Of a stretch of DNA of 64,000 nucleotides, positions 4,412-60,183 are shown piece by piece. Every line of letters begins with the position of its first letter. The stretch's first letter is position 1. The position numbers were made by a program, and so were the translations under genes. The notes below the pieces were generated by a model. It was not told where the DNA came from, ran no database searches, and saw only the letters and a list, made by a program, of their open reading frames with translations. The stretch is taken from NCBI GenBank assembly GCA_027487385.1, contig JAIYDS010000205.1:1-64000 (forward strand), in the 5' to 3' direction. The stretch comes from Acetobacteraceae bacterium (GTDB taxonomy: Bacteria > Pseudomonadota > Alphaproteobacteria > Acetobacterales > Acetobacteraceae).

Positions 4412-5583
4412 GGCGACCACTCCTTTTTGCGACCGGCACGGGGGTCTTGCCATTCGCCAGTCACGAGACGCTTGGCCGCTGCCTTTCGGTGGGCCTCGAG
4501 CAGCGCCTCGTAAAGCTGATGCGCTGCCTCAGCCTGGCTCACGATATAAAAACCGTTCGTCGTTGCGAAATAGGCATGATCCAGCAGAAACATTCCCATC
4601 AGAACCGCCTTTGGGTCGTCCTTTCCGAGGGTGGTCGCCAGGCAAATGCGGAAACTCTGGGGGTCCATGGCCCAACCAAAGCGTTGCTGCGTATGGCGAC
4701 CAATATGACCGCAGAAGTTGCTGATCGAGAGCGGATTGCCATGCTTGGATATCCATAGACGCCTTGGGGCCTCGGGACGATCGGCCGCGAGGCAGCGGGA
4801 CTGTTGCGCGAGAAGGCGCGGTCGATGAACCGTGAGGTAGCGTTCCAGGGCAGGCTGCAGAATGGCGGGAAAGCTCTTTTCAATCTCTCGCCCCCCCTTG
4901 GTCTCCTCCGCCGGAAAGACAAACCGCGACATATCCCCTGAGCGCAGCAGATGGCGTCCGATCTCGATGCCGTGGAAATTGCGCCGCCGAAAGGGCCTCA
5001 GAGCCAGGAGGGCGATGATGAGGCCGTCGCGATACCGGTCGGCCGCCTGGCGGGGATTGATCTCAACCATGGCCTCAGCCTCGGTCATGAGATCCAGCCC
5101 GAGGCGTGCCAATTCCCGCGAATCTTCAACGCGCTCCGCCTTGCTGCGCAGCGGCACGGCCATTTGCTGCAGGTTGGCCCGCGCGGCACGCATCCATTCC
5201 CAATCAATCGTTGGGAACATGGCATTCAACGCCATGATGAGCTTGGCCATCGTGCTGGCGACAGTAACCGGTGCACGGTCCTGCATCAGATAGTTGATGA
5301 AGGCCCGGACGCGCTCGCGGTCGACACGCTCCGCTGGCGCGTCGGCCTGATGCAGCCAGCCATTGAGCTTCAGGAAGCCCAGCCAAAGCCCATAATTCCC
5401 CATCACAGCGTCACGGGATGCAGGCCGCCATTTCGCGCCCTTGCCGCCAGCCTGGAGGATGGATCCGCCTCGGCAGGCCGCATCCCAGGCTGTCCGATCC
5501 GCAACCGGCCACTCCGAGAAGGGAATTCGGATGCGCTGCGGCGCGACGTCACTCTGGCGGGTGCGGCGCTTGCGGCGTTCCAT
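4408..5583 (-). CDS. Tyrosine recombinase/site-specific integrase with atypical catalytic motif
   Basis: Integrase-like architecture with C-terminal SFRICLATTLGKDDPKAVLMGMFLLDHAYFATTNGFYI; stop/start overlaps on both sides. Confidence 0.8.
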   Translation of the reverse strand: MERRKRRTRQSDVAPQRIRIPFSEWPVADRTAWDAACRGGSILQAGGKGAKWRPASRDAVMGNYGLWLGFLKLNGWLHQADAPAERVDRERVRAFINYLMQDRAPVTVASTMAKLIMALNAMFPTIDWEWMRAARANLQQMAVPLRSKAERVEDSRELARLGLDLMTEAEAMVEINPRQAADRYRDGLIIALLALRPFRRRNFHGIEIGRHLLRSGDMSRFVFPAEETKGGREIEKSFPAILQPALERYLTVHRPRLLAQQSRCLAADRPEAPRRLWISKHGNPLSISNFCGHIGRHTQQRFGWAMDPQSFRICLATTLGKDDPKAVLMGMFLLDHAYFATTNGFYIVSQAEAAHQLYEALLEAHRKAAAKRLVTGEWQDPRAGRKKEWSP

Positions 5584-7288
5584 TATCTCCTCCCCTTTCG
5601 AGAGCGGGTCTGGGGCGCGGTTCTGACCGTTGCTTTGCGTTTGGCGGCCTTTCCAGTCAGGTGTGCCTCGATCAATGCGTCGTAATGAGCCGTGGCTGCG
5701 ACACCTTGCCGGTCCACATAGGAGCCGAGCGTGGTTTCCAGGGTCTCATGCCCGAGATGTTCCTTCACGACGTAGATGGCGGTGGGGTCGTCATCGAGGA
5801 TCAGCTTGGCCGAGAGGTGACGAAAAAAGTGAGTGGTGGCGTCGATGCCCACGCGATCGCGGATCTCGGTCTTGATGTTGTGGCTCAAGGCTCCGAGGGT
5901 CTTGGACCGCCCCGGTTTACTGCCCGGGAATATGAAATCCGAGGGGAAGTCGCTCAGCAGTGGTCTGTGCAGCTGGAGGTAGGCTTTCAGCATTGTCGCC
6001 AGGCGCGGCGAGAGCTCGGTTTCGATTGGAACCCTGTTCTTGACCTCAGTCTCGTGGATCGCAATGACCACCCGTCCGTCCGGCCGCAGCAGCACATGTT
6101 TGCCAAGGGTCAGGCCGCCGAGATTTTTGATCCGCCAGCACTTGGTCAAGCTGAGCGCAATCGCGAGAGCCGTCTGATACTTCAGGGCCAGAGGGGGGGT
6201 ACTGGTGCCTGTCCGCTTGACGTCCCTCTCCACCTCGGCCGCCATCGCCCAGGGCAAATTGATCATCGCGTCAGTCCGCCCCGCGTCATCCATGGCTCGC
6301 AACCGGGTTTTGTTGCGGTCCGTGATCCCGCGCTTGGGCATCTGCAGTTTTTTGGCAATATCCTGCAGCCGCGCGAGATCAGGGCCTGACATTTTGAGGT
6401 GATGCTTGGCGATCGCGACTGCCAGGCTGGCGATTCTGGCGTTGACGTAGCTTCGTTCACCACCAGCCCGTTCAAGGTGATAGGTGCAGGCTTTGTGGAT
6501 CAGCTCGGGCGTGATGACGGCCTGCAGATCGACGAGGCGAGCGGGATCCTCTCCACTGTTCACCAAGGCGCCCAGCATCAGACGCAGATGAACCCGGTTG
6601 CTTTCGACGGTGGCGGGGCTGAGCGCCCGGCGACGAGGCAGCCGGGCAAAGATGTCAGATTGGGTGCCCCCGGCCAGCCAGCGTTCCACGTCGGTCAGCA
6701 GGCTCGGCGGATACGTGCTCCGGGCGGGGTGTAGTACAGGCTGTTGTCAGGCACGGTCAGCTGGGTGGCAGGCCAGCCTGGCACGCTGGATACGGCGTTG
6801 TTCCAGGCGAGGACGGTCTCGCGGAAGTTGGTTTCTGGATCGGCGATCAGACTGCGATGAATGAGGTCGTCGCGGTGTCTTGCCATGAACTCGTCGTTGA
6901 CCTGGCACGGTTCGATGTCGAGGCGGGTGCAGCAGCGTGCAAACCGGCCCAGCACCGCGGCAGGCCCCTTTCCGACAAGGCGAACCAACAGGGCACGCCA
7001 CGCCTCGGAAGGCGGAGCATCAATCCTGTTTGGGATGTTGATGACGCCGAGATGCAGCAATGCGAGACCGGCGTGCGAGCGCACATTGCTCCAGCGCCCC
7101 CTTGAGATCCCCACCATGGCGCCGGTCTTGTGGCGGATCAGATCCCTGATGACGGGAGGGCTGGCGGGGATGCCTTCCAGCATTTTGCCGGCGGCTTTCG
7201 CCAGAGTGTTGAGGGAGGAGACCATCTCCCGGCGCAGAGCGAGGGGCAGGGAAAGATCGTCACGGATGCGCTGGCTGACCTCCGCCAT
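5583..7288 (-). pseudogene. Tyrosine recombinase/integrase split into two frames by an apparent 1-nt deletion near 6721
   Basis: ORF 6695-7288 (ends ...DNSLYYTPPGARIRRAC*) continues in another frame at 5583-6689 (...STYPPSLLTDVERWLAGG...); adding one T on the coding strand gives YTPPWSTYPPSLLTDVERW. The 3' part keeps HFFRH...LGHETLETTLGSYVD. Confidence 0.75.
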
Positions 7289-10671: not shown

Positions 10672-11526
10672 TTAGGTCAAGACCCGGCCGGTCTGTAAAG
10701 CCGGCCGACAAGCGCCCGCCGGCTGATCCTGGCGAAACGGAAGGCCAGCGGCGACCAGCAGCAGGAGCACGAGCGTGAAGAAGACCCAGCCATAGATCAG
10801 GTGATCCGCCGCCGCGGCCTCGGCGCTGCCGAGCTGATGGCCCAGCAGCACGATCCCCAGCGCCCGCAGCCCATTGGCCAGCACCGGCACCACCAACGCC
10901 AGGACCATCACCGCCACGCGCCGCCCTGGGCTGCGGAACATCACCGCCGCGTAAAGCGCGCCGAAGGCCAGCGAGGCGATGAGGAAGCGCAGCCCGGCGC
11001 AGGCTTCGGCCACCAAGAAGATGCCGGCCGGGATCTCGATGGTCAGCGCATCGGCGAAATGCGGGATGCCGAGCAGCGTCAGTCCGGTAACGATCATCCA
11101 GGCGGTCAACCGTTGCAGCAGCGGCACCAGAAAGGCGCCGAAGGGCACCAGGAACACAAGATAGGCCAGCGGCACGGCGAAGGCGCGGAACAGGCGCCAG
11201 CCGAAAACGCCGAGGAACCAGGCGGGCACCAGCCCCAGCGCGGCGAGTTGCCGCCCCTCCATGAGGCCCAGCCGGTCCGCCAGCCACCAGCCGGCGCCGA
11301 ATCCGGCCGCCATGGGCAGCGCCAACCAGCTCGGTTCGGCCAGGCCCGTGAAGCGCGCCCGCCGCGTCCAGCCGAGCCAGAGCGCGATAGGGAGAACAAG
11401 CCAGCAGTGGTTATAGGCGGTGGAGCTGGACCAGATGCCCAGCGCCGCGCTGATCTCCGCCTGGAAGGCCCAGCCCAGCAGCGGCAAGCCGGCTAGAAAG
11501 AGCATCGCCGCTCGCTGGAGCCTCAT
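10672..11526 (-). CDS. xrtA: Exosortase A
   Basis: Multi-TM protein with EACAGLRFLIASLAFG (Cys), LANGLRALGIV (Arg) and DHLIYGWVFF (His) motifs. Confidence 0.92.
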   Translation of the reverse strand: MRLQRAAMLFLAGLPLLGWAFQAEISAALGIWSSSTAYNHCWLVLPIALWLGWTRRARFTGLAEPSWLALPMAAGFGAGWWLADRLGLMEGRQLAALGLVPAWFLGVFGWRLFRAFAVPLAYLVFLVPFGAFLVPLLQRLTAWMIVTGLTLLGIPHFADALTIEIPAGIFLVAEACAGLRFLIASLAFGALYAAVMFRSPGRRVAVMVLALVVPVLANGLRALGIVLLGHQLGSAEAAAADHLIYGWVFFTLVLLLLVAAGLPFRQDQPAGACRPALQTGRVLT

Positions 11527-25388: not shown

Positions 25389-28190
25389 ATGACCCCCACC
25401 GCTTCACACCTTCGCCGCGCGCGCCTGCTGGCGCCGTTGCTGCTCAGCCTCGCGGGAACGCCCGCCCTGGCGCAACCGGCCGAACTGCGCGCGGCGGCGG
25501 CCGCCGCCCGGGGGGACCTGCGCGCGGCGCAGATCGAATGGCGCAACGCGGCGCGGCAAAATCCCGGCTCCAACGCGGCACGCCTCGCTCTGGCGGAAGC
25601 GAGCCTCGAAATCGGCGATGGGGAGACGGCGGAGCGCGAGGCCCGCGCGGCCCTGCAACAGGGGGCCGATCCCTCCACCGCCATGGCGCTGCTGCTGCGC
25701 GCCTATCTCGTCAACGGCCGGCAGGATGCACTGCTCCAGGCCTTCCCCGAGACGGTTCCCGATCCCGGCGGGCAGGTCGCCGCCGCGCGCGGCATGGCGC
25801 TGCTGGCGCTCGGCCAGCTTGAGCCGGCGCGTGCCGCGATCGAGGCCGGCCTGCGCAGCGCGCCGGAAGGCGCCGCCCCCAACCTCGCCGCCGCGGCGCT
25901 GGCCCAGGCCGAGGGAGACCGCACCGGCGCGGAGCTTCTGATGGACCGGCTGCTGGCGCGCGAACCTCGCCTCACCGAGGCGCTGATCCGGAAGGGCTCC
26001 CTGCTCTTTGCCCGCAATGAGCCGGTCGAGGCGATCCAACGCTTCGACGCCGCGCTGGTCATCACCCCGGGCCAGGTCTCCGCCCTGCTGCGCCGGGCCG
26101 AGGCGCGCCTTGCGCTAGGCCAGTTCCCAGGCGCCACGCAGGACCTCGACGCCGCCCTGCTCGTCGTGCCGAACAGCGCGGCCGGGCATTACCTGCGCGC
26201 CGTGGCGGCCGCGGGCACGCGCGACTGGGTGGGCATGGACCGTGCCCTGCAGCGCGTCGGGCCCATGTTGGGCAGCTTCCCGGATGGCTTCCTGCTGCTC
26301 TCCACGGCCAAGCGCGGCATCGGCCAGATGGCGCAGGCCGAGGACGCGGCGCGGCGTCACCTGGCCCGCCAGCCGGCCGATCCGCGCGGCGCCAGGCTGG
26401 TCGCGGCCTTTGACCTCCAGGCCAACCGGCCCGGCGATGCGGCGCTCGTGCTGACGCAGCTCGCCGCGCGCGGCGGCGCGGATGCGGAGGCGTTGGACCT
26501 GTTGGGCCAGCTGCACGCGGGGGCGGGACGACGGCGCCAGGCGGTCACCGCCTTTGCCGCCGCCAGCGAACTGGCGCCGCAGGACCCGGCGATCCTGGCG
26601 CATCTGGCTGCGGCTCAGCTTGGCGTGGGCGACCTGGGCAGCATGGTGCGCGCGGCGCAGGCGGCGCTCACCCTCAACCCCATCCTCCCGGGCATGCGCG
26701 AATTGCTGGCTTTTGCGGCGCTGTATCGCGGTGACCTCGACGGGGTGCGCATCGAGCTGGCACGGCTCACCCTGGAGGAGCGGCGCGGGGAGGCCGCGCG
26801 CATTCTCGAAGCCTCTGCCCTTATCATGCAGATCAACCTGCCCCCGGCGCGCGCCATGCTGGATGAGGTGCTGCTCGCTGTCCCGGGTTCGGTTGCGGCA
26901 CGGCTTGGGCTGGTGCGCATCGCGCGGCTCGAAGGGCGTAGCGATGAGGTGGAAGCGCTGCTGGGCGAGGTGCTGCGCCTGGATCCCGCCAACACCGAGG
27001 CCGCGGGCCAATTGCTAGACGCGATCCGGCCCGATGGGCCGCGCGTGGCACAGGCGCTGGGCATGCTGCGGGCCAGCCAGGCGGCCGCGCCCACCAACCC
27101 CGCGCTGGGCATCCGCCTGGCCCAGGCCCTGGTCCAGATCCGCGAGCCTGCCCAGGCCGTGGCGCTGCTGACCCAAGGCCCCCTGGCCGCGCTGGAGGAT
27201 GCCGAAATGCAGACGGAGCGCGCCGAGTCACTTGCAGCGGCGGGCGATTTCCCCGCGGCGGAGGCCGCGAGCCGCGCCGCCCTGGCGATGCAGCCGCGTG
27301 CGCAGCGGGCGCGCCGGCAACTGGCCGCGCTGCAATTCCGCGCCGGCGATGCGCCCGGTGCCGAGGCCACCCTGCTGCAAGGCCTGCGCGAAGACCCCGC
27401 TGACCCGGCGCTGCAGCAGGGCCTGGCCGCCCTGCTGCGCCAGGCGCGCGGCATGGATGCCGCCCAGGACTTCGCCGCCCGCATGGCGCGCGAACCCACC
27501 GCGCAGCCTGCCGGGGCGGCGCTGCGCGGGGATCTGCTGCTGGGGGCGGATCAGCCGCTGGAGGCGGCGCGCGCCTATGCCATCGCGCATGCGGAAGGCC
27601 CCTCGGCCTATCTCGCCCTGCGCCATGCCAGCGCCCTGCGCCTGGCCGGCCAGCCCGAACCCTCGGCCGCCGCGCTGCGCGCCTGGCTGGAGCGCGCGCC
27701 CGATGACAATGACGCGGCAATGATGCTCTCGCAGCTCGACATCGAGGCCGGCCGCCTGGCCGCGGCCGAGCCGCGGCTGGAGGCGCTGCTGGAACGCCGG
27801 CCGGATGACGCGCTGGCGTTGAACAACCTCGCCTGGCTGCTGCGCCAGAAGGCGGATCCGGCCTCGCGCCTGCGCGCACGCGGCCTGGCGGAGCGCGGCT
27901 ATTACCTCGCCCCCGGCACGGATGTGGCGGATACACTAGGCTGGATCCTGGCGCGGGACGGGCATCCGGCCGAGGCGGTGCTGCTGCTGCGGCAATCGGC
28001 CCGGCTGCGCCCGGACGCGGTACCGGAAGCAGGTGCCGCCTACCGCCTGGCCTTCGCGCTGAACGCGAGCGGCGCGCGGGCAGAAGCGCTGGCCGTGCTG
28101 GCCCCTGCGCTGGAGGCCCTGCCCGCGCCCAGCTTCCCCGAGCGGCCGGCCGCGCTGCTGCTGCTGGCCGAATTGCGCCGGCAGAACTGA
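25389..28190 (+). CDS. prsT: PrsT-like TPR protein, XrtA/PEP-CTERM-associated
   Basis: 933 aa with serial TPR-like repeats; directly follows prsR. Confidence 0.85.
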   Translation: MTPTASHLRRARLLAPLLLSLAGTPALAQPAELRAAAAAARGDLRAAQIEWRNAARQNPGSNAARLALAEASLEIGDGETAEREARAALQQGADPSTAMALLLRAYLVNGRQDALLQAFPETVPDPGGQVAAARGMALLALGQLEPARAAIEAGLRSAPEGAAPNLAAAALAQAEGDRTGAELLMDRLLAREPRLTEALIRKGSLLFARNEPVEAIQRFDAALVITPGQVSALLRRAEARLALGQFPGATQDLDAALLVVPNSAAGHYLRAVAAAGTRDWVGMDRALQRVGPMLGSFPDGFLLLSTAKRGIGQMAQAEDAARRHLARQPADPRGARLVAAFDLQANRPGDAALVLTQLAARGGADAEALDLLGQLHAGAGRRRQAVTAFAAASELAPQDPAILAHLAAAQLGVGDLGSMVRAAQAALTLNPILPGMRELLAFAALYRGDLDGVRIELARLTLEERRGEAARILEASALIMQINLPPARAMLDEVLLAVPGSVAARLGLVRIARLEGRSDEVEALLGEVLRLDPANTEAAGQLLDAIRPDGPRVAQALGMLRASQAAAPTNPALGIRLAQALVQIREPAQAVALLTQGPLAALEDAEMQTERAESLAAAGDFPAAEAASRAALAMQPRAQRARRQLAALQFRAGDAPGAEATLLQGLREDPADPALQQGLAALLRQARGMDAAQDFAARMAREPTAQPAGAALRGDLLLGADQPLEAARAYAIAHAEGPSAYLALRHASALRLAGQPEPSAAALRAWLERAPDDNDAAMMLSQLDIEAGRLAAAEPRLEALLERRPDDALALNNLAWLLRQKADPASRLRARGLAERGYYLAPGTDVADTLGWILARDGHPAEAVLLLRQSARLRPDAVPEAGAAYRLAFALNASGARAEALAVLAPALEALPAPSFPERPAALLLLAELRRQN

Positions 28191-28194
28191 CGTC

Positions 28195-29481
28195 ATGCGC
28201 GACGCGGCGCTGATCGCAACCCTGGGCGCGCTGCTGGCAGCGGTGCTGGCGCAGCCCTTCATCGGCATTCTGCTGTGGAATTGGATCGCCTTCATGAATC
28301 CGCACCGGCTGGCCTATGGGATGGCCAGCGAGTTGCCCTGGGCGGTGATGGTGCTCGCCGCCACGCTGCTCGGCTGCCTCATGGCGGGCGAACTGCGCCT
28401 GCCGCCGCTGAACGCCACCACGCTGCTCTTCGTGGCGCTGATGCTCTGCTTCACCGCGACCTCCTTCGTCGCCCTCGGCGACCCCGCGGCGGTCTGGGAG
28501 AAGTGGGACCGAAGCGTGAAGATCCTGCTCGGCCTGCTGCTGACGGCGGCGATGCTGACGACGCGGCAGCGGCTGCACGCGCTGGTCTGGGTGATGGTGA
28601 TCTCGCTCGGCTATTACGGCGTGCGGGGCGGCATCTTCGCGCTGGCCACGGGCGGAAGCTATCGCGTCTGGGGCCCGCCGCAGACCATGATCACCGACAA
28701 CAACCACCTCGCCGCGGCGCTTCTGATCTCGCTGCCGCTGATGAATTACCTCCGGCTGCAATCGGCGCATCGCGTGGTGCGGTTCGGGCTTGGCATCGCC
28801 ATGGGGCTGACGCTGCTCGCCGTGGTCGCCAGCTATTCGCGCGGGGCGCTGCTGGGCCTCGGCGCCGTGCTCTTCGTGCTCTGGCTGATGAGCGCGCGCA
28901 AGTTGCTGCTGGGTGCCGGGCTCGCACTCTGCCTCGCCGGCGTGGTCGCCTTCATGCCGGGCGGCTGGAGCGAACGGATGGGCGGGATCTCCAGCTATCA
29001 ATCCGATGACAGCGCCTCCGAGCGGCTGGTGCTCTGGGGCATTTCCTGGCGCCTCGCGCTGGATCGCCCGCTGGTCGGCTCCGGCTTCACCGGACCCTAT
29101 ACGCGGGCGGTGGTGGACCGCGTGGCCCCGGGCGGGCCGGCGCGGGCGGTGCACAGCATCTGGTTCGAATTGCTGGGCGAGCACGGCTTCCCCACCTTCC
29201 TGATCTGGGCCGCGCTGAGCGGCGTGGGCGTGGTGCAGGCCTGGGGGCTGATGCGCATGGCGCGCGGGCGGGCGGAGCTGGGCTGGGCGGGGGATCTGGG
29301 GCGGATGGGGCTGGTCGCCATCGCCGCCTATCTCGTGAGCGGTAGCTTCCTCTCGCTCTCCTACTGGGATTTCTACTGGACGCTGCTGGTGGTCCTCGCC
29401 GGCGCGCAGGTGCTGGCTTCGCGGGCGCGGGCGCCCGTGCCGGCGCGGGGCTGGCGCGGCGCCGCCCTGGCCACCCGATGA
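28195..29481 (+). CDS. O-antigen ligase-like O-glycosylation ligase, exosortase A-associated
   Basis: Multi-TM; LWNWIAFMNPHRLAYG, GPPQTMITDNNHLAAALLISLPLMNYLRLQ, HSIWFELLGEHGF. Confidence 0.9.
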   Translation: MRDAALIATLGALLAAVLAQPFIGILLWNWIAFMNPHRLAYGMASELPWAVMVLAATLLGCLMAGELRLPPLNATTLLFVALMLCFTATSFVALGDPAAVWEKWDRSVKILLGLLLTAAMLTTRQRLHALVWVMVISLGYYGVRGGIFALATGGSYRVWGPPQTMITDNNHLAAALLISLPLMNYLRLQSAHRVVRFGLGIAMGLTLLAVVASYSRGALLGLGAVLFVLWLMSARKLLLGAGLALCLAGVVAFMPGGWSERMGGISSYQSDDSASERLVLWGISWRLALDRPLVGSGFTGPYTRAVVDRVAPGGPARAVHSIWFELLGEHGFPTFLIWAALSGVGVVQAWGLMRMARGRAELGWAGDLGRMGLVAIAAYLVSGSFLSLSYWDFYWTLLVVLAGAQVLASRARAPVPARGWRGAALATR

Positions 29482-29602
29482 CGGAGACGCGCCATGGATG
29501 GCCTTTATTTCCTCGCCATGCTCGGCGGCATTGCCTGGCTCGCCTGGTGGTCGGTGGGGGGTGCCGGCTGGTCGCCCTTCGCGATGCGCGAGGTGTGCGC
29601 GG

Positions 29603-30724
29603 ATGATCCGGCTGCTGAGCTTCACCACCCTCTATCCGAACCAGGCCGCCCCCAACCATGGCGTCTTCGTGGAAAACCGGCTGCGCCATCTCGTCGCCGG
29701 CGGTGAGGCTTGCAGCACGGTGCTGGCGCCGGTGCCCTTCCACACGCGCGTGCCGGGCGAGGAGATGCGGCAAGGGCTGCGCGTGCTGCACCCGCGCTTC
29801 CCCATGGTGCCGGGCCTGGGATTGTGGACGAGCCCCATGGGCCTCTTCTGGAGCGCGCGCCGCACGCTGGAGCGGATGTTCGCCGATGGCTTCGATTTCG
29901 ACGTGCTGGACGCGCATTACCTGCACCCCGAGGGCATCGTGGCCGTGCGGCTTGGGCAGCTCCTCGGCAAGCCGGTGGTGCTGACCGCGCGCGGCTCGGA
30001 TGTCAGCCTGCTGCCGCGCTACCCTGGCCCACGGCACGCCATCCTGCGCGCGATGCGCGAGGCCGATGCGCTGATCGCGGTCAGCGCCGGGCTGAAGGAC
30101 GCGATGGTGGAACTGGGCGCGGACGCCGCAAAGATCACTGTGCTGCGCAATGGCGTGGATCTCGATCTCTTCCACCCCCCCGAAACCCGCGCGCCGCATC
30201 CGCCGACGCTGCTTTCGGTGGGGCTGCTCATCCCGCGCAAGGGGCATGACCGCATCATCGCCGCCCTGCCGGAGCTGCCGGGCTTTCATCTGCGCATCCT
30301 CGGTGAGGGGCCGGAGCGGGGCCGGCTGGAAGCCCAGGTCCGGGCGCTGGGCGTAGGGGATCGGGTGGCGATGCCAGGCGCCGTCCCGCATGCCGCGCTG
30401 GCCGCGCAATATGGCGCGGCGGATGCGCTGGTGCTGGCCTCGAGCCGCGAGGGCTGGGCCAATGTGCTGCTGGAGGCGATGGCCTGCGGCACGCCTGTCC
30501 TCGCCAGCCCGGCATGGGGCTGCCGCGAGGCGGTGCAGGCGCCGGAAGCCGGCCGCCTGCTGACCGATTTTTCCTTGGGTGCCATCGTGGCCGGCGTGCG
30601 CGCCCTCTTCGCCGCGCTGCCCGACCGCGCCGCGACCCGCCGCTACGCCGAGGGCTTCGGCTGGGCGGAGACGACGGCGGGCCAATTGGCCGTGTTCCGC
30701 CGTGTGCTGGGCGGGCCATGCTGA
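29603..30724 (+). CDS. GT4 glycosyltransferase, exosortase A-associated
   Basis: FTTLYPNQAAPNHGVFVENRLRHL, RGSDVSLLPRYP, SSREGWANVLLEAMACGTPV. Confidence 0.88.
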   Translation: MIRLLSFTTLYPNQAAPNHGVFVENRLRHLVAGGEACSTVLAPVPFHTRVPGEEMRQGLRVLHPRFPMVPGLGLWTSPMGLFWSARRTLERMFADGFDFDVLDAHYLHPEGIVAVRLGQLLGKPVVLTARGSDVSLLPRYPGPRHAILRAMREADALIAVSAGLKDAMVELGADAAKITVLRNGVDLDLFHPPETRAPHPPTLLSVGLLIPRKGHDRIIAALPELPGFHLRILGEGPERGRLEAQVRALGVGDRVAMPGAVPHAALAAQYGAADALVLASSREGWANVLLEAMACGTPVLASPAWGCREAVQAPEAGRLLTDFSLGAIVAGVRALFAALPDRAATRRYAEGFGWAETTAGQLAVFRRVLGGPC

Positions 30725-32691
30725 GCCGCCGCCACGCGATGGCCCTAGGGCTGATGCCCTGGCCCGCCCAGGCCGCCTGCGCCCCGGATTTCGCGCGGCT
30801 CACGCTGGAGGGCACGGGCGCGCCGGCCGGCAGCATCGCCGTCTTCGGCCAGGCCTTCCGCCCCGGCGACATGCCGCGCGGCAGCCTACCCACAATCCGC
30901 CTCGCCAGCGGCGCCGCGCTGGCCACGCAGATGGATGTGCGCAACCGCCACCCCGATGGCTCCGTACGCCTCGCGCAGATCGCTGTCGCTTGCCCGGCCT
31001 TGGCGGATGGCGCGCTGGCACCCTGCCTGATGCGCGCGGAACCGCGGGAGGCCGGTGCGGCGCTCGGCGCCACGGGCCGTTCCGCGCTGATCGAGATTCA
31101 ATCCGGCGGACAGGTCTGGCGGGCCGATCTGATGCAAGGCTTCCCCGGTGCCGATCCCTGGCAATCCGGCCCGCTGGCCGTGCAGGGGCGCCTGGCGCTG
31201 CCAGTGACCCTGACCGGGCTCGCCTCGCTGCGGCTGGTCGCGGATGTCGCCTTGCGCGCGGATGGCACGCTCTGGGTCGAGGCTTGGCTGCGCAATGACA
31301 TCGCCATGCGCCCCAATGGGGGCGAGGTCGCCTATGTCGTCCGGCTGCGGCTGGATGGGCGCCTGGCACTGGAGGCCGAGATCCGCCGCCAGCATCACTA
31401 CACCGGCTGGGGCCGCCTGCTCGGCAGCACGCGTGCGGGGCCGGCCCCGCCGCCTCCGCTGATCCGCCATGACGCCGGTTACCTGGCAGATGCCGGCGCC
31501 GTCGCGCGTTATGGCCTCACTGCCGGGATCGAACCGGCGCTGCTGGCGCGCATGGACGGCGTGATGGCGGCGCCCGGCTGGAGCAAGCCGCTCGGCCCGC
31601 GCGGGGTCACGCAGGATATGCGGCAGACGGGCGGGCGCGCGGATATCGGCCCGGCGACCATGCCGCAGGCCGCCTGGCTGATCAGCGGCGACCGCCGTGC
31701 GGCCGCCTTCGCCCTGGGCCAGGCGGAAGCCGCCGGCAGCATCCCCTGGCATTTCCAAGACGCCGCGCGCGGCTGCTGGATGGACACGATCCGCTGGCCC
31801 GGCCTCTGGACGGATGGGCGCGGTGGGCCCGCCCCGGGTGGCCTGGCCCAGCCCATCTCAGGCGAGACGGGCTGGATCACGGATTGCGCGCATCAGCCTG
31901 ACCTGAACTTCATCCCCTATCTGCTGAGCGGCCGACGCGCCCTGCTCGACAATCTCCAGGCGCAGGCCGCCTGGGCGGTGCTCTCACAATGGCCGGCGGC
32001 GGCCGCGCGCGGCGCCGGTGAGGGGACGAATGTCGTGCGCGGCAATCAGGTGCGCGGGGCCGCGTGGTCACTCCGGCAATTGGAAAATGCCGCCTGGGCC
32101 AGCCCCGAGCGCGATGCAAACCGGGCCTGGCTGCGTGCGTCCGCCGATGCGAACTGGGCCTGGATCATCAGCCGCATTCCCGCCTGGACCGCCACGCAGG
32201 GCGAGGCGCACGGCCGCATCCCCGGCGAATACGGCACGCCGGGCGTGACACCGCCCTGGCAGCAGGATTATTTCGCCTCGACCGCGGCGAGCGCCGCCCG
32301 ACGCGGCAACGCGCAGGCGCGCGCCGTGCTGCTCTGGATGTCAAATTTCCTGGTGGGCCGCTTCACGGCAGAACCACGTGGCTTCGCGCCACATGATGGT
32401 TGCGCCTATCTCATCGCCACCGGCACGGCGCGCGGCTGGGCCGAGATCGGCGCGGCCACCCGCGCGGCGGGGCTCTCCAACGGCATGGGCTGGAGCAAGA
32501 CGGAGGGCGACTACGCGCAACTCGCGCTGCAATCCCTGGCGGCGATCAGCGATGTGCTTGAACTGCCGGCTTCCCGCGGCGCCTACGCCTGGCTAGCGGC
32601 GGCCGGCGCGCCCTTCACCCGCCCGCAAGATTTCCGCCGCGACCCGGCCTTTCACATCGTGCCACGCGGCGCGGCCCCCTGCCGGGACTGA
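30718..32691 (+). CDS. Secreted hypothetical protein, paralogue of the N-terminal part of 53947-57018
   Basis: N-terminal MLSRRHAMALGLMPWPAQAACA; collinear similarity with the 53947 product over its full length (e.g. PPWQQDYFASTAASAARRGNA...NFLVGRF). Confidence 0.8.
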   Translation: MLSRRHAMALGLMPWPAQAACAPDFARLTLEGTGAPAGSIAVFGQAFRPGDMPRGSLPTIRLASGAALATQMDVRNRHPDGSVRLAQIAVACPALADGALAPCLMRAEPREAGAALGATGRSALIEIQSGGQVWRADLMQGFPGADPWQSGPLAVQGRLALPVTLTGLASLRLVADVALRADGTLWVEAWLRNDIAMRPNGGEVAYVVRLRLDGRLALEAEIRRQHHYTGWGRLLGSTRAGPAPPPPLIRHDAGYLADAGAVARYGLTAGIEPALLARMDGVMAAPGWSKPLGPRGVTQDMRQTGGRADIGPATMPQAAWLISGDRRAAAFALGQAEAAGSIPWHFQDAARGCWMDTIRWPGLWTDGRGGPAPGGLAQPISGETGWITDCAHQPDLNFIPYLLSGRRALLDNLQAQAAWAVLSQWPAAAARGAGEGTNVVRGNQVRGAAWSLRQLENAAWASPERDANRAWLRASADANWAWIISRIPAWTATQGEAHGRIPGEYGTPGVTPPWQQDYFASTAASAARRGNAQARAVLLWMSNFLVGRFTAEPRGFAPHDGCAYLIATGTARGWAEIGAATRAAGLSNGMGWSKTEGDYAQLALQSLAAISDVLELPASRGAYAWLAAAGAPFTRPQDFRRDPAFHIVPRGAAPCRD

Positions 32692-48682: not shown

Positions 48683-51600
48683 TCAGCCTTTCGCGTCCGG
48701 CGTCGCCGCCGCCACCGCCAGCCGTGCCAGGGCCGGGAGCGAGCGCGAGCCGGTGGCATGCATGATGGCCGCACGATGTGCCTCCACCGTGCGCTGGCTG
48801 ATGCCGAGATCGGCGGCGATGTTCTTGCTCGGCTGGCCGGCCAGCACGCGGTCCATCACCATGCGCTGGCGCGGCGTGAGCCGCCCGATCAGCGCGGCCG
48901 CGGCGCGCCGGTCGGCCGCCTGCTGACCAAGATCCTGCGACTGCCGCAGCGCATCGGCGATCACCGCCAGGAGCTTCGCGACCTCGACGGGTTTCTCGAC
49001 GAAATCCGTGGCGCCGGCCTTGATCGCGCGCACCGCCGCCGGAACATCGCTGAAGCCGGTGATCATGATGGCCGGCGTCGCGTCGCCGCGCTCCCGCAGC
49101 AGGGTCAGCAGCTCATACCCGCTCATCCCCGGCAGCTTCGCGTCAATCAGCACGCAGCCGCACGCCTCGCCGCCGGGCGGCTGCGCGGCGAGGAAGGCTT
49201 CCGCCGTGGCATGGTCCTCGACCATGTAGTGCTCCCGTTCCAGCATCCCGCGCATCGCGGCACGGAGCAGCGGGTCATCATCCACCACATGCACGGTGCA
49301 GCCCGCCTCGGCCGCCGGGCTGGCCGGCGGGGCGGCCAGAAGCTGCCGCGCCAGGGCCAGCAGGTCGGCCGGCTTCACCGGCTTGCGCAGCTGGATGCAT
49401 TCGAGCCGCGCGATGGCCTGCTGCGTCTCGGGCGAGATGTCGCCGGTCAGGATCACCACGGGCAGAGAGCCCCCGGCGGCGGCGCGCAACCGCGTGGCGG
49501 CATCGAGGCCGGTCATGCCGCCCGGCAGGTTGAAATCCGCCAGCACCAGCTGCGGCCCGAAGCCCGCCTCCCGCGCCAGCGCGAGGCCCGAGGCTCCGTC
49601 CGCCGCGCCCCGCGCGTCATGCCCCTCGGCGATCAGGGTGCTCACCAGCAGCCCGCGCAGATCCGCGTCATCCTCGATCACGAGGATGCTGCCGCACCGC
49701 GGCGGAAGGGCCGGGATGCTCTCGGCCGGGAGCGGCGGCGCCGGGACGATGCGGGCCTCCAGCGCGAAGACCGAGCCATGCCCGAGGCGGGACCGCACCT
49801 GCAGGCGGTGCCCCAGCAGCATCGCCAGGCGCTGGACGATGGAGAGGCCGAGGCCGAGCCCGCCCTGCCGCTCGCGCGGCAGCTTCCGGATCTGCTGGTA
49901 CTCGCCGAAGATCGTCTGCAGATCCTTCGCCGCGATGCCGATGCCGGTGTCCCAGACCTCGATCTGGAGAATTCCCTCGCGCTGCCGGCAGCCCAGCAGG
50001 ATGCGGCCCCTCGGCGTGTATTTCAGCGCGTTGCCCAGCAGGTTGCGCAGCATCAGCTCGAGCAGGGTCGCATCGGTCTCGACCGCAAGGCTGGAGGACA
50101 CGACGCGCAGCTCCAACCCCTGCGCCGTGGCGAGGTAGCCGAATTCCTCGCGCAGCTTCTCCAGCAGGGGCGCGATGCGGAACGGCGCATGCGTGGGCAC
50201 CAGCGTGCCGGAGCCCACCGGATCCGTGTCGAGCAGCGTGTTCAGCATGCCGCCCATCGCCGTCAGCGCGGGCTCCAGCAGGCGCACCAGGCGCGTTGCA
50301 TCGGCGCCCTCCACGCTGCGTGCCAGCATGGCCTGCAGCAGGATCAGGGTCTGGAGCGGCTGGCGCAGATCATGGCTCGCGGCGCTGAGGAATTGCGACT
50401 TGGCGGCATTGGCGGCATCGGCCAGGCGCCGCGCCTCTTCCAGGGCCTCGGCGATCTCCTTGCGGGCGGTGATGTCGCCGTAGGTGATCACCACGCCGTC
50501 CACCTGGCCATCCTGCGTTCGATAGGGCAGGACATGGCGCAGCAGCCAGAGCCCGGCCACGGTGCGGATTTCCCGCGCCGCCGGCGCTTCGCCCCGCAGC
50601 ACCGCGTTCACATCCGCCAGCATGTCCTCATCCGGGGCTAGCGCGCGGAGATCCGCCAGTGGGCGCCCGATATCGCCCGCCAGCAGGTTGAAGACCGTGC
50701 GTGTCGCCGGGGTGAAGAAGCGGATGCGCAGCTTCGGGTCGAGGAAGAGCGTCGCCACATCGGTGCTGTAGAGCACGTTCTGCAGATCATTCGAGGTGGT
50801 GCGGCTGCGCTCCAGCGTCTCCTGCAGCTGGCCGTTCAGCGCGGTCAGCTCCTCGTTGAGGGATTGCAGCTCCTCCTTGGAGGTCAGCAACTCCTCATTG
50901 GTGGATTGATACTCCTCATTGGCGGAGAGGGTCTCCTCGTTGATGCTGCGCTGCTCCTCGCCGGACAGCTCCAGCTGGCGGATGGCGTTGCGCAGCTCGG
51001 CGCGGGTTTCCTCCAATTCGCGCTCCAGCGTCGCGACGCGCGGGCTCCCCTTCCGCCCCGAATCAGGGAGGGCTGGCCCGCCGGGTATCTCGACGAAGCA
51101 GACCAGCAGCATCTCATCCGGCTCGGTCGTGATGCCGCGGGCATCGATCCTGAGCCGGCTGCCGCCCGCGCCAGACGCGGCCTCGGTCACGCTGGTCGGC
51201 GCCCCGCTCTCGCGCGCCTGCTGGATCACCAGGCGCAGCTTGGCGCGCAGGCCGGGGCGCGCGAGCAGGAGCAGATCCTGCGTCGGCTGCCCCGAGGGGT
51301 GGGAGAGGTATTGCTCGACTGCGCCCATGGAGTAGAGGCAGTTGTTGTTCCGGTCGAGCAGCACGGCGGCCGGCGAATGGCTCTCCAGCACGAGGCGACG
51401 ACAGAGGTCGGCCAGGCGCATCTGGCGCGATGTGATCCGCCCGCCCTGCGGCCCGCCCCGCCCGCCCTCGCCGATCAGGTTGAGGGAGCTCACCTCGATG
51501 CTGCGGCTCTCCTTCCCGCGGCGCCAGAGGCGCTCGGATTTCGCCACGGGGTGGAAGCCGGCCTCGGCCTGGCCCAGCGCCTCCGCATTGCCCAGCAGCA

Positions 51601-52912
51601 GCAGGCCGCCGGGCCGCAGCGCGAAGTGGAACAGCCCGATCACGCGGGCCTGCGCCTCGGGCTTGAGGTAGATGAGCAGGTTGCGGCAGGAGACGAAGTC
51701 GAGCCGCGAGAAGGGCGCATCCGCCAGCACGTCCTGGACGGAGAAGATCACGCAGCCGCGCAGATCCTGGTTGACCCGCCAGCAGCCGTTTTCCTCGACG
51801 AAGAAGCGCCCGAGCCGCTGCGCCGAGACCTCGCGCGCGATGCTGAATGGGTAGATGCCGCGTCGCGCCGTCGCGATGGCCTCGGCATCCAGGTCCGAGG
51901 CGAAGACCTGGAGGCGGATCGGCTTGCCACTGGCGGCGATCGCCTCCTGCAGCAGCATGGCGAGCGACCAGGTCTCCTCCCCCGTGCTGCAGCCGGCGAC
52001 CCAGAGGCGGAAGGGGAGGTTCGCGGGGTGGTTCGATATGACCCCGGGCAGGATATCGGCCTCCAGCTTGGCAAAGACGGCGGGGTCCCGGAAAAAGGCC
52101 GTGACATGGATCAGCATGTCCTTGCCGAGCAGGGCCAGCTCCTGCCCATCCGCCTCCAGCCGGGCGGTATAGGCGCCGATCTCGCGCGTGCCGGCGATTC
52201 CCATGCGCCGGGCCACGCGGCGGCGCAGCGTGCCGGGCTTGTAGAGCTCGTAATTGCTGCCGGCCTGCTCCTTCAGCAGGGTGATGATGCGCGGCAATTG
52301 ATCATCCGAGGCGCCGGCATGGCCGCGGGAATGCGCCTGAAGGGCCGCCGGCATCGCCGCGATCCGCAACACCGCGCTGGCGCCGCCGCAGGCGATCACG
52401 CCTTCCGGCATGCCCTTGAACTCCGCTTCCGCGGGATCCTGCACCAGAACCAGGCCGCCCTTGGCGAGGATCGCCCGCGCTCCCTTGCTGCCATCCTGCC
52501 CGTTGCCGGAGAGAACCACCGCCGTCGCGCGGGCGCCCTGATCCTTCGCCAGGGAGGCCATCAGGAAATCCAGCGGTAAGCGCAGCCCGTGCTTCTCGCG
52601 CACGGAAGCCACGCGCAGAATGCCGCCCGTCAGGGCCAGGGTGGTTCCCGGGCGGATCACATAAAGGTGATCGGCCAGGACAGGCATGCCGTCCTCCGCC
52701 TCCTCCACGACGAGCCCGGTATGCGGCGCCAGCAATTCGACAAGCAGGCTCTCGTGATCGGGATCGAGGTGCTGGACCAGGAGGAAGGCCATGCCGCTGG
52801 GCGTGGGCAGCGCTTCCAGCAGGCGGCGGAACGCCTCCAGCCCGCCGGAGGAAGCGCCGATCGCCACAACATCCATCGGGTGTCTTGCGACAAGTGTCGG
52901 CGCGTCAGACAT
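48683..52912 (-). CDS. CheB-CheR-PAS-histidine kinase-REC-REC-LuxR HTH hybrid sensor/regulator
   Basis: CheB [18 protein letters not shown]; CheR [20 protein letters not shown]; coiled coil [54 protein letters not shown] H-box; two receivers; C-term [41 protein letters not shown]. Confidence 0.92.
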   Translation of the reverse strand: [1409 protein letters not shown]

Positions 52913-53902: not shown

Positions 53903-53942
53903 CTCCTGAAATAACGTAGAGAGAAATTCTCTCGTTCAGGAG
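53903..53942 (+). promoter_or_regulatory. Nested 5'-leader hairpin sequestering the Shine-Dalgarno
   Basis: Outer 8-bp perfect stem CTCCTGAA/TTCAGGAG, inner 6-bp stem GAGAGA-AAT-TCTCTC; GGAG lies in the 3' arm, 4 nt before ATG 53947. Confidence 0.6.
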
Positions 53943-53946
53943 TGAA

Positions 53947-56900
53947 ATGGCAAGTTCACCAGCGCAGGTTATATTCAATATTACGCCGACACATTCGCCA
54001 CAGACGCCGCATTCGATTGTCAGTTTTTTTTACCAGAATGCCGGAGTGGCACAACTCGCTTCGGGCCTGTCAGTCCTGGGCCAGGTGTTCGCCGCGGGCG
54101 AACTGCCCCGCCACGCGCAACTGACCGCCGCCATCGCCGGCGTGACTGTCGCGGTCCAGATGGACATCAAGACCACGCACCCGGATGGTTCCGCCAACAT
54201 GGTCCTGCTCACGGTCGAGCGGCCGGCTCTGGCCGCCGGAGCGAGCCTGCAGGTGGATCTCGCGCTCGGCAGCGGGCCCGCCCCCGCCGCGCTCGACCTG
54301 CGCGCCGGCCTGCACGGGCATCACCTGGCTGCCACGCTGACCGGCCCGGGCCTCGCGCCCCAGCATTTCGACGTGCTGGCCGCGCTCGACCACGCGCTGG
54401 CGGCGGGCACGGCCTCGATCTGGCAGAGCGGGCCGCTCGCCAGCCAGGCGCGGGTGGCGATCGACCTTCCCGGCTCCGCCCGGCTGGTCTTCGACGTGAC
54501 GCTGTTCCGCGACGGCGCCCTCTCGGTCGAGGCGCAGTTCAACAATGACGGCGCGATGGAAGCCACGGGCGGGCGCGTCGTGCGGCAGATCGCCGTGACG
54601 CTGGATGGCGTGGCCGCACCCGCCGTCTCGCTCGACCAGGGCCAGTACCAGAACTGGCATGGCAGCTTTTCCACCTCCACGCGCGATGGCGGCCAGGGGC
54701 TGGGGAGTGCCGCGGGCGGCTGGCTGAACATCCGCCAGGATGTGGCGCACCTCGAAGCCACGGGCGCCGTGGCGCATTACGACCTGACGCATGGCGTGAA
54801 CACCTCCCTGCTTGACGGCTTCGCGGCCGCCGCCGCCGCACCGGGCTGGAATGCGCCGCTCGGCACGCATGGGGTGGCGACCTTCATGCCGGGCACCGGC
54901 GGGCGGGCCGATATCGGCTTCACCACCGCCGCCAACACCGCCTGGCTGATGACGCAGGATGCGCGGGCCGCGAATTACGCCATCGGCCAGGCCGAGGCGG
55001 CGAGTGCGGCGCCCTGGCACCTCTGGGATGCGCAGCACGGCACCTGGCTCGGCACCAACGCCTATCCGTCACTCTGGACCGACGCGCGCGGCGGCGTGGG
55101 GAGGCCGGGCGCCGCGGGCTCCACCGGCCTGACGCAGCAGCCCGACGCCGCCACGGGCTGGACGCTCGACACGGCGCATCAGCCCGACCTCTCCTATGTG
55201 CCCTATCTGATGACCGGCGCGCGCTGGATGCTGGACAACCTCCAGGCCCAGGCCAGCTGGAACCTGATGAGCCAATGGCCCGCCATGCGCGGCGAGGCGC
55301 AGGATCTGGTGGTGCAGGACAACCAGGTGCGCGGCGCGGCCTGGAGCCTGCGCCAGATCGACGAGGCCGCCTGGGCAAGCCCCACCGGCAGCGCCGAGAA
55401 GGCCGCCTTCACCGAGGCTTCGGCCGCCAATTGGGCCTGGCTCGTCAGCAAGATTCCCGAATGGACCGCCCAGCAGGGCGAGGCACATGGCTGGCTGCCC
55501 GGCGCCTACGGAACCCCGGGCGCGCTGCCGCCCTGGCAGCAGGATTACTTCGCCTCGACGGCCATCGCCGCCGCCCGCCATGGCAATGCGGATGCGCTCA
55601 CCTTCCTCAATTGGGAAGCGAATTTCCTGGTGGGCCGCTTCACCCATACGAAGCAGGGCATGCCCGCGCATGACGGCGCGGCCTATCTGCTCGCCATCGC
55701 CGACCCCGCGACCGGCACGCCCTATGCGACATGGGCCTCCATCGGCGCGCATACCGCGGCGCTGGGCTGGTCCAACGGCGCGGGCTGGGGGCAGAGCCAG
55801 GGCGATTACCCGCAGCTGGCCTTGGCGACGCTGGCCGGTATCGCCGAACTCACCGCCTCCCAGGCCGCCGCGCGGGCCTATCGGGCGCTGCTGGCCGATG
55901 CGCCACCCTTCACCGCGACCAGTGATTTCACCCGCGATCCCACCTTTTCGCTGATCCCACCGGCCAGCCCGACCATGGCGGCGCTCTCCGTCGTGCTCGG
56001 TGCCGATTCCTGGCAGGGCCACCCCGATGCGGTGATCCTGCTGGATGGGCGGGAGGTGTTCCACGGCCTCATCGCGGCCAGCCATGCGAGCGGCGGCATC
56101 GCCATCGAGCTCGGCCAGGTTTCGCTCGCCGAGCCGCATGCCGTGACGGTGCGCTTCCTCAATGATGCCTGGGGCGGCACCGCGGCCACGGATCGCAACC
56201 TGCATGTCGAGGATCTCCGCCTCGACCAGGTCTCGACCGGCCAGCACGCGGATCTCTTCGCGACGGGCGAGGTCACGCTGCGCCTGCCCGGCGCCGCGCC
56301 GCCCGCCCTGCCGGTTCCCGCGCCCCCGCCGCCGGCCGTGCCAGGCGTGCTGATCCATCTGGGCCTCTCGGAAGATGCCTGGGCGGGCCATGCGCATGCG
56401 ACCATCCTGCTCGATGGCGTCGTCCTCGCCGCGAACCGGGAGATCACCGCCAGCCATGCGGCGGGGAAGGTGCAGTATCTCGACCTGCGTGCCGAGATGA
56501 CGGCGGGCGCACACACGCTGACGGTGCGTTTCCTTGACGATGCCTGGGGCGGCAATGCCGCGGCGGACCGGAACCTCTACGTGGATTCCGTGGCCATCGG
56601 TGGCGTGGACCTGCACCAATCCGCCGCACTGCTCTGGAGCCGCGACACAAGCTTCTCCTTCACCCAGCAGGGGGCCGCCCCCGTGATCGGCAGCGGGCCG
56701 GATTCGCTGACGCTCGGCCTCTCCGCCGATTCCTGGGGGGGGAATCCGCATTTCCTCATCCTGGTGGATGGGCGCCAGATGGGCGGCGTGCAGAGCGCCT
56801 CGGCCAGCCACGCAGCAGGACAGCATGACTTCCTGGAGATTCATGGCAGCTTCGGCACCGGGCAGCACCAGCTCACCGTGCGTTTCCTGGATGATGCCTG

Positions 56901-57018
56901 GGGCGGCACCGCGGCGCAGGATCGCAACCTCCATGTGGACAGCCTCTCGCTGAACGGGGTGGATCTGCACCGGCACGCGTCACTCCTGGCCTCGGGCGAT
57001 GCGGTGTTCGCGTTCTGA
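53947..57018 (+). CDS. 1023-aa hypothetical protein: N-terminal paralogue of the 30718-32691 product plus three C-terminal CBM60-like repeats
   Basis: Collinear similarity to the 30718 product, then three ~100-aa repeats each with DSW/DAW...ILLDG...VRFL(D/N)DAWGGxAAxDRNLxV. Confidence 0.85.
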   Translation: MASSPAQVIFNITPTHSPQTPHSIVSFFYQNAGVAQLASGLSVLGQVFAAGELPRHAQLTAAIAGVTVAVQMDIKTTHPDGSANMVLLTVERPALAAGASLQVDLALGSGPAPAALDLRAGLHGHHLAATLTGPGLAPQHFDVLAALDHALAAGTASIWQSGPLASQARVAIDLPGSARLVFDVTLFRDGALSVEAQFNNDGAMEATGGRVVRQIAVTLDGVAAPAVSLDQGQYQNWHGSFSTSTRDGGQGLGSAAGGWLNIRQDVAHLEATGAVAHYDLTHGVNTSLLDGFAAAAAAPGWNAPLGTHGVATFMPGTGGRADIGFTTAANTAWLMTQDARAANYAIGQAEAASAAPWHLWDAQHGTWLGTNAYPSLWTDARGGVGRPGAAGSTGLTQQPDAATGWTLDTAHQPDLSYVPYLMTGARWMLDNLQAQASWNLMSQWPAMRGEAQDLVVQDNQVRGAAWSLRQIDEAAWASPTGSAEKAAFTEASAANWAWLVSKIPEWTAQQGEAHGWLPGAYGTPGALPPWQQDYFASTAIAAARHGNADALTFLNWEANFLVGRFTHTKQGMPAHDGAAYLLAIADPATGTPYATWASIGAHTAALGWSNGAGWGQSQGDYPQLALATLAGIAELTASQAAARAYRALLADAPPFTATSDFTRDPTFSLIPPASPTMAALSVVLGADSWQGHPDAVILLDGREVFHGLIAASHASGGIAIELGQVSLAEPHAVTVRFLNDAWGGTAATDRNLHVEDLRLDQVSTGQHADLFATGEVTLRLPGAAPPALPVPAPPPPAVPGVLIHLGLSEDAWAGHAHATILLDGVVLAANREITASHAAGKVQYLDLRAEMTAGAHTLTVRFLDDAWGGNAAADRNLYVDSVAIGGVDLHQSAALLWSRDTSFSFTQQGAAPVIGSGPDSLTLGLSADSWGGNPHFLILVDGRQMGGVQSASASHAAGQHDFLEIHGSFGTGQHQLTVRFLDDAWGGTAAQDRNLHVDSLSLNGVDLHRHASLLASGDAVFAF
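55970..57015 (+). repeat. Three tandem CBM60-like domain repeats within the 53947 CDS
   Basis: TVRFLNDAWGGTAATDRNLHVEDL / TVRFLDDAWGGNAAADRNLYVDSV / TVRFLDDAWGGTAAQDRNLHVDSL. Confidence 0.85.
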
Positions 57019-59139: not shown

Positions 59140-60183
59140 TCAGTCGCGCCCGACCGCGATGCCCCAGAAGGCCGTGATGTGCCGCACGGCGGAGACGCCC
59201 GCTTCCAGCACCCAGGGCCCCGCCCGGCCGAGGCCCGCGGCGATCGGGAAGCCATGGCCCATCTCCGGCAAGGTCCAGAGTTCCACCGCCGCCACGCCGC
59301 GCCGTGCCCAGACGCGGTGCCGCGCCTGCGGAATGGGCGTCGTTTCGCTGCTGGGCTCATGCGCGCAGCCATGCAGTTCGGCCCATTGTGCCGCGAGGAT
59401 TTCGGCATTCTCCGGGTCCACCGTGCGGTCCCGCTCACCCTGCCAGATGGAGAGGCGCGGCCAGGGCTGGTGGCCGCGCGGCGCGGTTCGCGCGCGCACG
59501 GCCGCCGCGAGTCCGATGCGCGTGCTGAAAGGATCCGCGCGATGCATGCGCAGCAGAGCCATGGGCGAGGTGCTGGCCGCGCCGACCGGCATGCCAGCGA
59601 CCACCGCCCCGGCCGCGAAGACGGCCGGATAGGCGGCCAGCATGGCCGCCGCCATCGCGCCCCCGGCCGAGAGCCCCAGGATGAAGACGCGCCGGCGGTC
59701 CGAGCCGAATTCCCGGCTCGCGTGGCGCACCATCTGCCGGATGGACAGGGCCTCGCCCTGGCCGCGGCCAACATCCATCGGCCGGTACCAGTTGAAGCAG
59801 CGGTTGCGATGATTGGCCGTGACCTGAACGGGCAGCACCAGCGGGATGCCGAGTTCCTCGGCCATCATGATCCAGCCGGTCTGCGCGGCGAAGTCCGCGC
59901 CGTCCTGGCCGCATCCATGCAGGACGACGATCAGCGGCGCACCCGTCTGCGGCTTGCGGCGCGGATGGAAGACCAGCATGCGCAACGCACCGGGATTGGA
60001 CCCGAAATGCGCGACTTCGGTGACCCTGCCACGTGGCGCTATCGGCGCGCGGCTTGGCTCAGGCGGGGCCCAGGCCAGGTGGATCAGCCGGGCGGCGGCC
60101 TGGCCGAGATGTACCATCAGGCCGCTGGCGCGCAGCCGCTTCGCCGCCCTGGGCCGCCCGGCCCGCCGGGAACGAAGCGACAC
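59140..60183 (-). CDS. PHB depolymerase-family esterase
   Basis: LIVVLHGCGQDGADFAAQTGW; CFNWYRPMDVGRGQGEALSIRQMV; VFILGLSAGGAMAAAMLAAYP; LPEMGHGFPI. Confidence 0.92.
   Translation of the reverse strand: MSLRSRRAGRPRAAKRLRASGLMVHLGQAAARLIHLAWAPPEPSRAPIAPRGRVTEVAHFGSNPGALRMLVFHPRRKPQTGAPLIVVLHGCGQDGADFAAQTGWIMMAEELGIPLVLPVQVTANHRNRCFNWYRPMDVGRGQGEALSIRQMVRHASREFGSDRRRVFILGLSAGGAMAAAMLAAYPAVFAAGAVVAGMPVGAASTSPMALLRMHRADPFSTRIGLAAAVRARTAPRGHQPWPRLSIWQGERDRTVDPENAEILAAQWAELHGCAHEPSSETTPIPQARHRVWARRGVAAVELWTLPEMGHGFPIAAGLGRAGPWVLEAGVSAVRHITAFWGIAVGRD

Follow-up and report, generated by a model that had tools for sequence, protein, structure and literature searches.

Sinorhizobium meliloti shortens succinoglycan with two glycanases, one encoded by exoK and the other secreted by PrsDE (PMC1403797, PMC4916376), and ExoK has been described as a beta-1,3-1,4-glucanase (PMC1403797). 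A further precedent is AlgL, an in-operon toroid lyase that removes polymer from the periplasm (PMC8829089). Neither a hydrolase nor a lyase is mentioned in the 2006 description of the XrtA/PEP-CTERM exopolysaccharide (EPS) system (PMC1569441).

The window analyzed here, the whole stretch of 64,000 nucleotides from an Acetobacteraceae genome, contains a full XrtA/PEP-CTERM EPS locus, in which XrtA, PrsK, PrsR, PrsT, a chain-length determinant, and an O-ligase all score above their NCBIfam cut-offs. Loci of this type are widespread. This one also encodes an EpsB-type transferase, a tyrosine kinase, an ATPase, a deacetylase, FemAB, and others, along with glycosyltransferases and a flippase-type protein. 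A short form of an uncharacterized core lies in the middle of the locus, and a long form lies 21 kb further on, past the last glycosyltransferase and a CheB/CheR/kinase hybrid.

The arrangement resembles that of ExoK and ExsH, as a paralogue pair in which one copy has a signal peptide and belongs to the EPS cluster and the other has a type I-like C-terminus; the second S. meliloti enzyme is type I secreted, whereas the long copy of the window is only type I-like. ExoK and ExsH are GH16 beta-jelly rolls. No GH16 Pfam match was found in the window copies or in 21 homologues, and the core, with a predicted RIFT barrel, beta-sandwich, and alpha/alpha toroid, is not homologous to ExoK or ExsH; the likeness is a functional analogy, and the activity is predicted. 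AlgL (PL5), a periplasmic toroid enzyme of an EPS operon, serves as a model for what the short copy may do, but its (alpha/alpha)5 toroid belongs to a family other than that of the core, and we know of no RIFT or sandwich part in it. Because the facts match the ExoK/ExsH arrangement and the AlgL precedent, we favor a self-EPS depolymerase pair and consider it fairly probable that the two gene products, one periplasmic and one extracellular, cut the exopolysaccharide of the XrtA locus.

Two copies of one core and their genomic context

The genes and modules discussed below are as follows.

10672-11526, minus strand: exosortase A, XrtA (TIGR03109)
25389-28190, plus strand: PrsT TPR protein (TIGR02917), a marker of the XrtA system
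28195-29481, plus strand: XrtA-associated O-ligase (TIGR03097), upstream of the short form
29498-30724, plus strand: GT4 glycosyltransferase, overlapping the short form
30718-32691, plus strand: short form, 657 aa; export signal peptide and core
30718-30774, plus strand: short-form signal peptide MLSRRHAMALGLMPWPAQA, by inspection; Sec or Tat
30790-31041, plus strand: short-form RIFT-barrel domain, PcRGLX_1st-like
31084-31494, plus strand: short-form beta-sandwich domain, from the AlphaFold2 model
31495-32673, plus strand: short-form alpha/alpha toroid, from the model and conservation
53938-53942, plus strand: AGGAG, likely ribosome-binding site of the long form, from sequence reading
53947-57018, plus strand: long form, 1023 aa; core and three CBM60 modules, no signal peptide
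54043-55965, plus strand: long-form core, residues 33-673
55975-56313, plus strand: CBM60 repeat 1 and the beginning of a Pro-rich linker
56347-56649, plus strand: CBM60 repeat 2
56656-57015, plus strand: CBM60 repeat 3, up to the C-terminus GDAVFAF

An initial annotation had described a full-length paralogue pair of which only the distal copy carries three CBM60-like modules, and both parts of this description hold. The two ORFs lie at the positions it gave, and their cores are collinear, with 303/648 identical residues (47%; E = 4e-154, BLASTP); the alignment spans residues 33 to 671 of the long form, which gives a common core of ~640 aa. A search of the whole assembly (5.49 Mb, 313 contigs) recovered exactly two copies of this core. 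CBM60 (PF16841) matches the long form in three stretches (E = 3.3e-36; 124 bits versus a gathering score of 28.2) and is absent from the short form. These modules, far above the curated cut-off and here attached to a new core, are predicted to bind glycan. They share 42-45% identity with one another and were not reported as repeats at the DNA level by a tandem repeat finder, and the C-terminus GDAVFAF is common to several homologues.

The short ORF is open in frame upstream as far as 30514. Its start is likely to be 30718, because an ATG here runs into the GT4 stop codon (ATGCTGA) and is followed by a stretch resembling a signal peptide. Since the start sits inside the GT4 stop region, the GT4 gene and the short form are probably co-translated. 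Upstream of the XrtA locus (2453-6689, minus strand), the window has weak matches to serine recombinases of the XisF/CcrB type and to a tyrosine recombinase; past the long form (59140-60183, minus strand), it encodes an extracellular polyhydroxyalkanoate depolymerase (NF050058). The hybrid that separates the EPS genes from the long form is a 1409-aa CheB-CheR-PAS-kinase-receiver-LuxR protein (48683-52912, minus strand), and several of the other long-form loci (L061, L062, L070, L091) have relatives of it nearby.

Homologues of the core are associated with EPS loci, as the initial annotation had anticipated. An O-ligase or GT4 gene lies directly upstream on the same strand in 29/43 short-form loci, and an XrtA-system gene lies within 10 kb in 31/43, with about a quarter of the short-form loci lacking XrtA-system neighbors. 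Of the 29 long-form loci, 19 have a gene of the kind found in the EPS locus of the window within 10 kb. In a sample of 150 genomes, PrsT was above its cut-off in 20/25 core-bearing genomes versus 28/125 others (Fisher P = 7.6e-8, a value inflated by the shared ancestry of the genomes). Core loci outside XrtA clusters are found in Acidiphilium, among others; the locus of Acidiphilium rubrum (L104) is followed within 3 kb by two ORFs that are presumably PssD/PssE-like. A plasmid relative in Skermanella rosea (NZ_CP086112.1, 86292-88898) is annotated as a calcium-binding protein, and no EPS biosynthesis genes were seen around it. As for the polymer, the EPS locus has no UDP-glucose dehydrogenase gene and so gives no indication of a uronic acid substrate, a test made uninformative by the two such genes elsewhere in the genome. 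The epimerase at 35876 is generic.

Family, clades, and export routes

The core was present in 25/150 Acetobacteraceae genomes searched, often in two copies, and a genome-wide scan added 79 further loci, nearly all from Roseomonas-like Acetobacteraceae and their relatives. The ORFs fall into two length classes, with C-terminal extensions of either at most 18 aa or, where complete, ~200 to 1150 aa. A tree built from 86 cores placed 28 rows of Roseomonas-type long forms in one clade and 33 rows of short forms in another, each with an SH-aLRT of 99; more distant members were mixed. Like the window, ten other contigs carry both copies, separated by 11-33 kb. Taken together, the two clades and the paired contigs indicate that the pair is an old duplication that has been kept together across Roseomonas-like Acetobacteraceae. 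At one locus (L101, 5171-11968), the short and long forms are divergently transcribed neighbors, and the same layout is suggested in a second genome (G062). Both copies of another genome look broken, with frame changes and an internal TGA (G088:C1:5143530-5145550 and 78443-80326), through either sequencing error or decay.

The length classes differ at both ends. Short forms open with a hydrophobic signal peptide, in which RR is frequent, and long forms start directly at the RIFT barrel; signal peptides were judged from hydropathy and inspection, the automatic choice of starts being noisy, and 13 loci were without the motif used. Among 29 long-form C-termini, CBM60 was found in 15/29, RTX repeats in 14/29, and the serralysin C-terminal domain in 5/29. 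Many RTX-bearing long forms end in a DFLW-like motif, and many of those with CBM60 end in GDAVFAF or GDVFLQF. RTX proteins are exported by type I secretion. The long form of the window has CBM60 only, without RTX repeats, and is a probable type I substrate, a reading we draw from its kinship with RTX-bearing relatives. Two type I HlyD genes above the cut-off are present in the genome, away from the long gene; no type I secretion genes are linked to the long gene.

Predicted fold of the core and its relation to PL26

The AlphaFold2 model of the core (pLDDT 85.8, pTM 0.88) has strands to about residue 230 and helices after it, and predicts a RIFT barrel followed by a beta-sandwich and an alpha/alpha toroid. 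Searched with Foldseek, its sole significant PDB fold matches were chains of PL26 exo-rhamnogalacturonan lyases (E = 1.4e-5 to 2.6e-4, probability 0.96-1.0, TM 0.27-0.45). A structure search could have pointed away from the polysaccharide role first suggested for the family; instead, the best PDB match was a polysaccharide lyase. The predicted order of domains would be that of the PL26 enzyme PcRGLX (PDB 5xqg, 5xq3, 5xqo), at these low TM values and with a toroid that finds no significant match when searched alone.

Sequence comparisons place the likeness to PL26 in the RIFT barrel. This domain is homologous to that of PcRGLX by profile (hhalign, E = 2.4e-5 over 54 columns), and the Pfam domain PcRGLX_1st (PF19501) was found in 10/21 homologues, with a best E of 2.5e-6. 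It was matched by neither window copy, so the first impression that no known enzyme signature is present stands for the two window sequences taken singly and fails for the family. The PL26 beta-sandwich (PF21345) and toroid (PF21346) gave zero Pfam matches in the 21 homologues at E ≤ 1, and the corresponding sub-profiles did not align to PL26 (E = 0.25-0.35, hhalign); three bona fide PL26 proteins, used as a control, scored 1e-110 or better in Pfam. A search for further PL26 sequences among relatives of one genome (G370) found none beyond the known one, and PDB sequence searches by protein and by profile returned nothing meaningful. Membership of the core in PL26 was rejected for the sandwich and toroid, which have no detectable sequence kinship with it. 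For the same reason, we regard the architecture as PL26-like and assign the putative catalytic part to a new CAZyme-like family distinct from PL26. The beta-sandwich is also much shorter (~140 aa versus 360 aa in PcRGLX), and unlike PcRGLX, the core family has two export types, CBM60 or RTX tails, and an EPS-operon context. For its architecture alone, we slightly prefer a lyase over a hydrolase.

Modeled alone, the toroid reached a pLDDT of 92.5, and in the toroid-only fold search no PDB entry matched it significantly (lowest E = 0.047, TM up to about 0.45). The matches listed, all nonsignificant, were mostly alpha/alpha carbohydrate enzymes, including epimerases, GH88, GH105, GH76, and lyases.

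Conservation was counted over 78 bacterial and 8 phage rows, with residues numbered from nucleotide 30790 of the short form. Y204, R283, W340, W362, H368, R422, W426, R429, W490, and Q492 are invariant in the 78 bacterial rows, and D285, N455, and D493 are present in 97% or more of them. All 8 phage rows have R283, D285, W340, W362, H368, R422, W426, R429, N455, W490, Q492, and D493. These polar and aromatic positions would suit an active site. They also bear on whether the family might instead be a noncatalytic EPS-binding or matrix protein, the core binding polymer and the long form cross-linking it. The CBM60 and RTX modules of the long forms would fit such a role, as would the lack of a catalytic Pfam signature in the sandwich and toroid; however, the lyase-like architecture of the core makes it unlikely, as do the numerous charged and aromatic residues that are invariant and persist even in the distant copies of phages.

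Phage relatives and proposed function

Homologues of the core are also encoded by phages, namely, viral contigs from IMG/VR (L115-L124) and gp39 of JF412302. In L115-L122, the sandwich and toroid occur without the RIFT barrel, carried on an N-terminal stretch and a Pro-rich linker, and the proteins of L115, L117, L119, and L120 are 47-53% identical to the short form of the window. The core module has no PHROGs family of its own. PHROGs matches to surrounding genes place it after tail fibre/J-type genes and before an endolysin-like gene in L119 and after baseplate wedge and tail-lysozyme-like genes in L120; the remaining viral contigs have few PHROG matches, few of them to tail genes. In the published phage EBPR siphovirus 1, gp39 is a 25% relative and adjoins an annotated glycosyl hydrolase gene. 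An Acetobacteraceae genome with both bacterial copies (G107) encodes a protein 66% identical, over its full length, to the J-type protein of L119, and the contig carrying the prophage-like region of this genome ends before the expected place of the phage core gene. Six phage rows of the 86-core tree join the short clade (SH-aLRT 100), and two distant ones fall outside. Because phage copies of the module adjoin tail genes, their placement points to a surface polysaccharide as substrate. Its position next to tail or baseplate genes makes the module a putative phage depolymerase.

These phage copies also weigh on a nutritional alternative, in which the enzymes would attack plant or algal polysaccharides such as pectin or xylan, like PL26 and the classical CBM60 xylanases. 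The PL26 architecture and the description of CBM60 as xylan binding would agree with such a diet, and some loci outside EPS clusters could fit it (the Skermanella plasmid, for example). We nevertheless find it improbable, since most carriers have the short copy within an EPS biosynthesis operon, the window shows no set of uptake or degradation genes beside it, and the six phage copies group with the EPS-operon copy in the tree. Least probable of all is an EPS-modifying enzyme whose toroid epimerizes or isomerizes polymer sugars, like AGE-type or C5-epimerases with alpha/alpha folds: modifying enzymes are frequent in EPS operons, and cellobiose 2-epimerase, mannose isomerase, and YihS lead the toroid-only list, which includes glucuronyl C5-epimerase, but those matches are nonsignificant (E ≥ 0.047), the whole core matches a lyase, and adjacency to phage tail genes fits a depolymerase and not an epimerase.

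We thus return to a pair of depolymerases acting on the producer's own EPS. The initial annotation had proposed a family acting on or binding the EPS of this locus; the fold search and the EPS-locus linkage uphold the connection, and action on this particular EPS is what we infer. The toroid and sandwich would form a glycan-cleaving active site, with residues such as R283, H368, R422, R429, N455, and D493. The short copy would reach the periplasm via Sec or Tat and trim or clear polymer while it is being made and exported. The long copy would leave by a type I exporter, hold glycan through Ca-dependent CBM60 modules, and cut released polymer outside the cell, which may control chain length or biofilm release. 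Phages carrying the same putative catalytic module among their tail-region genes may use it for passage through the same polymer. More tentatively, we speculate that one catalytic module serves in three places on one polymer, the producer periplasm, the cell exterior, and phage tails, and that phages took the producer's enzyme, or the reverse, for receptor clearing.

If the proposal is correct, these proteins represent a CAZyme family whose catalytic part has no Pfam, NCBIfam, or PHROG entry, and a depolymerase encoded in the operon, together with its secreted sibling, would offer a way to influence chain length, export, and biofilm release. The phage gene that is ~50% identical to the core makes the substrate directly testable, as the EPS of the phage host.
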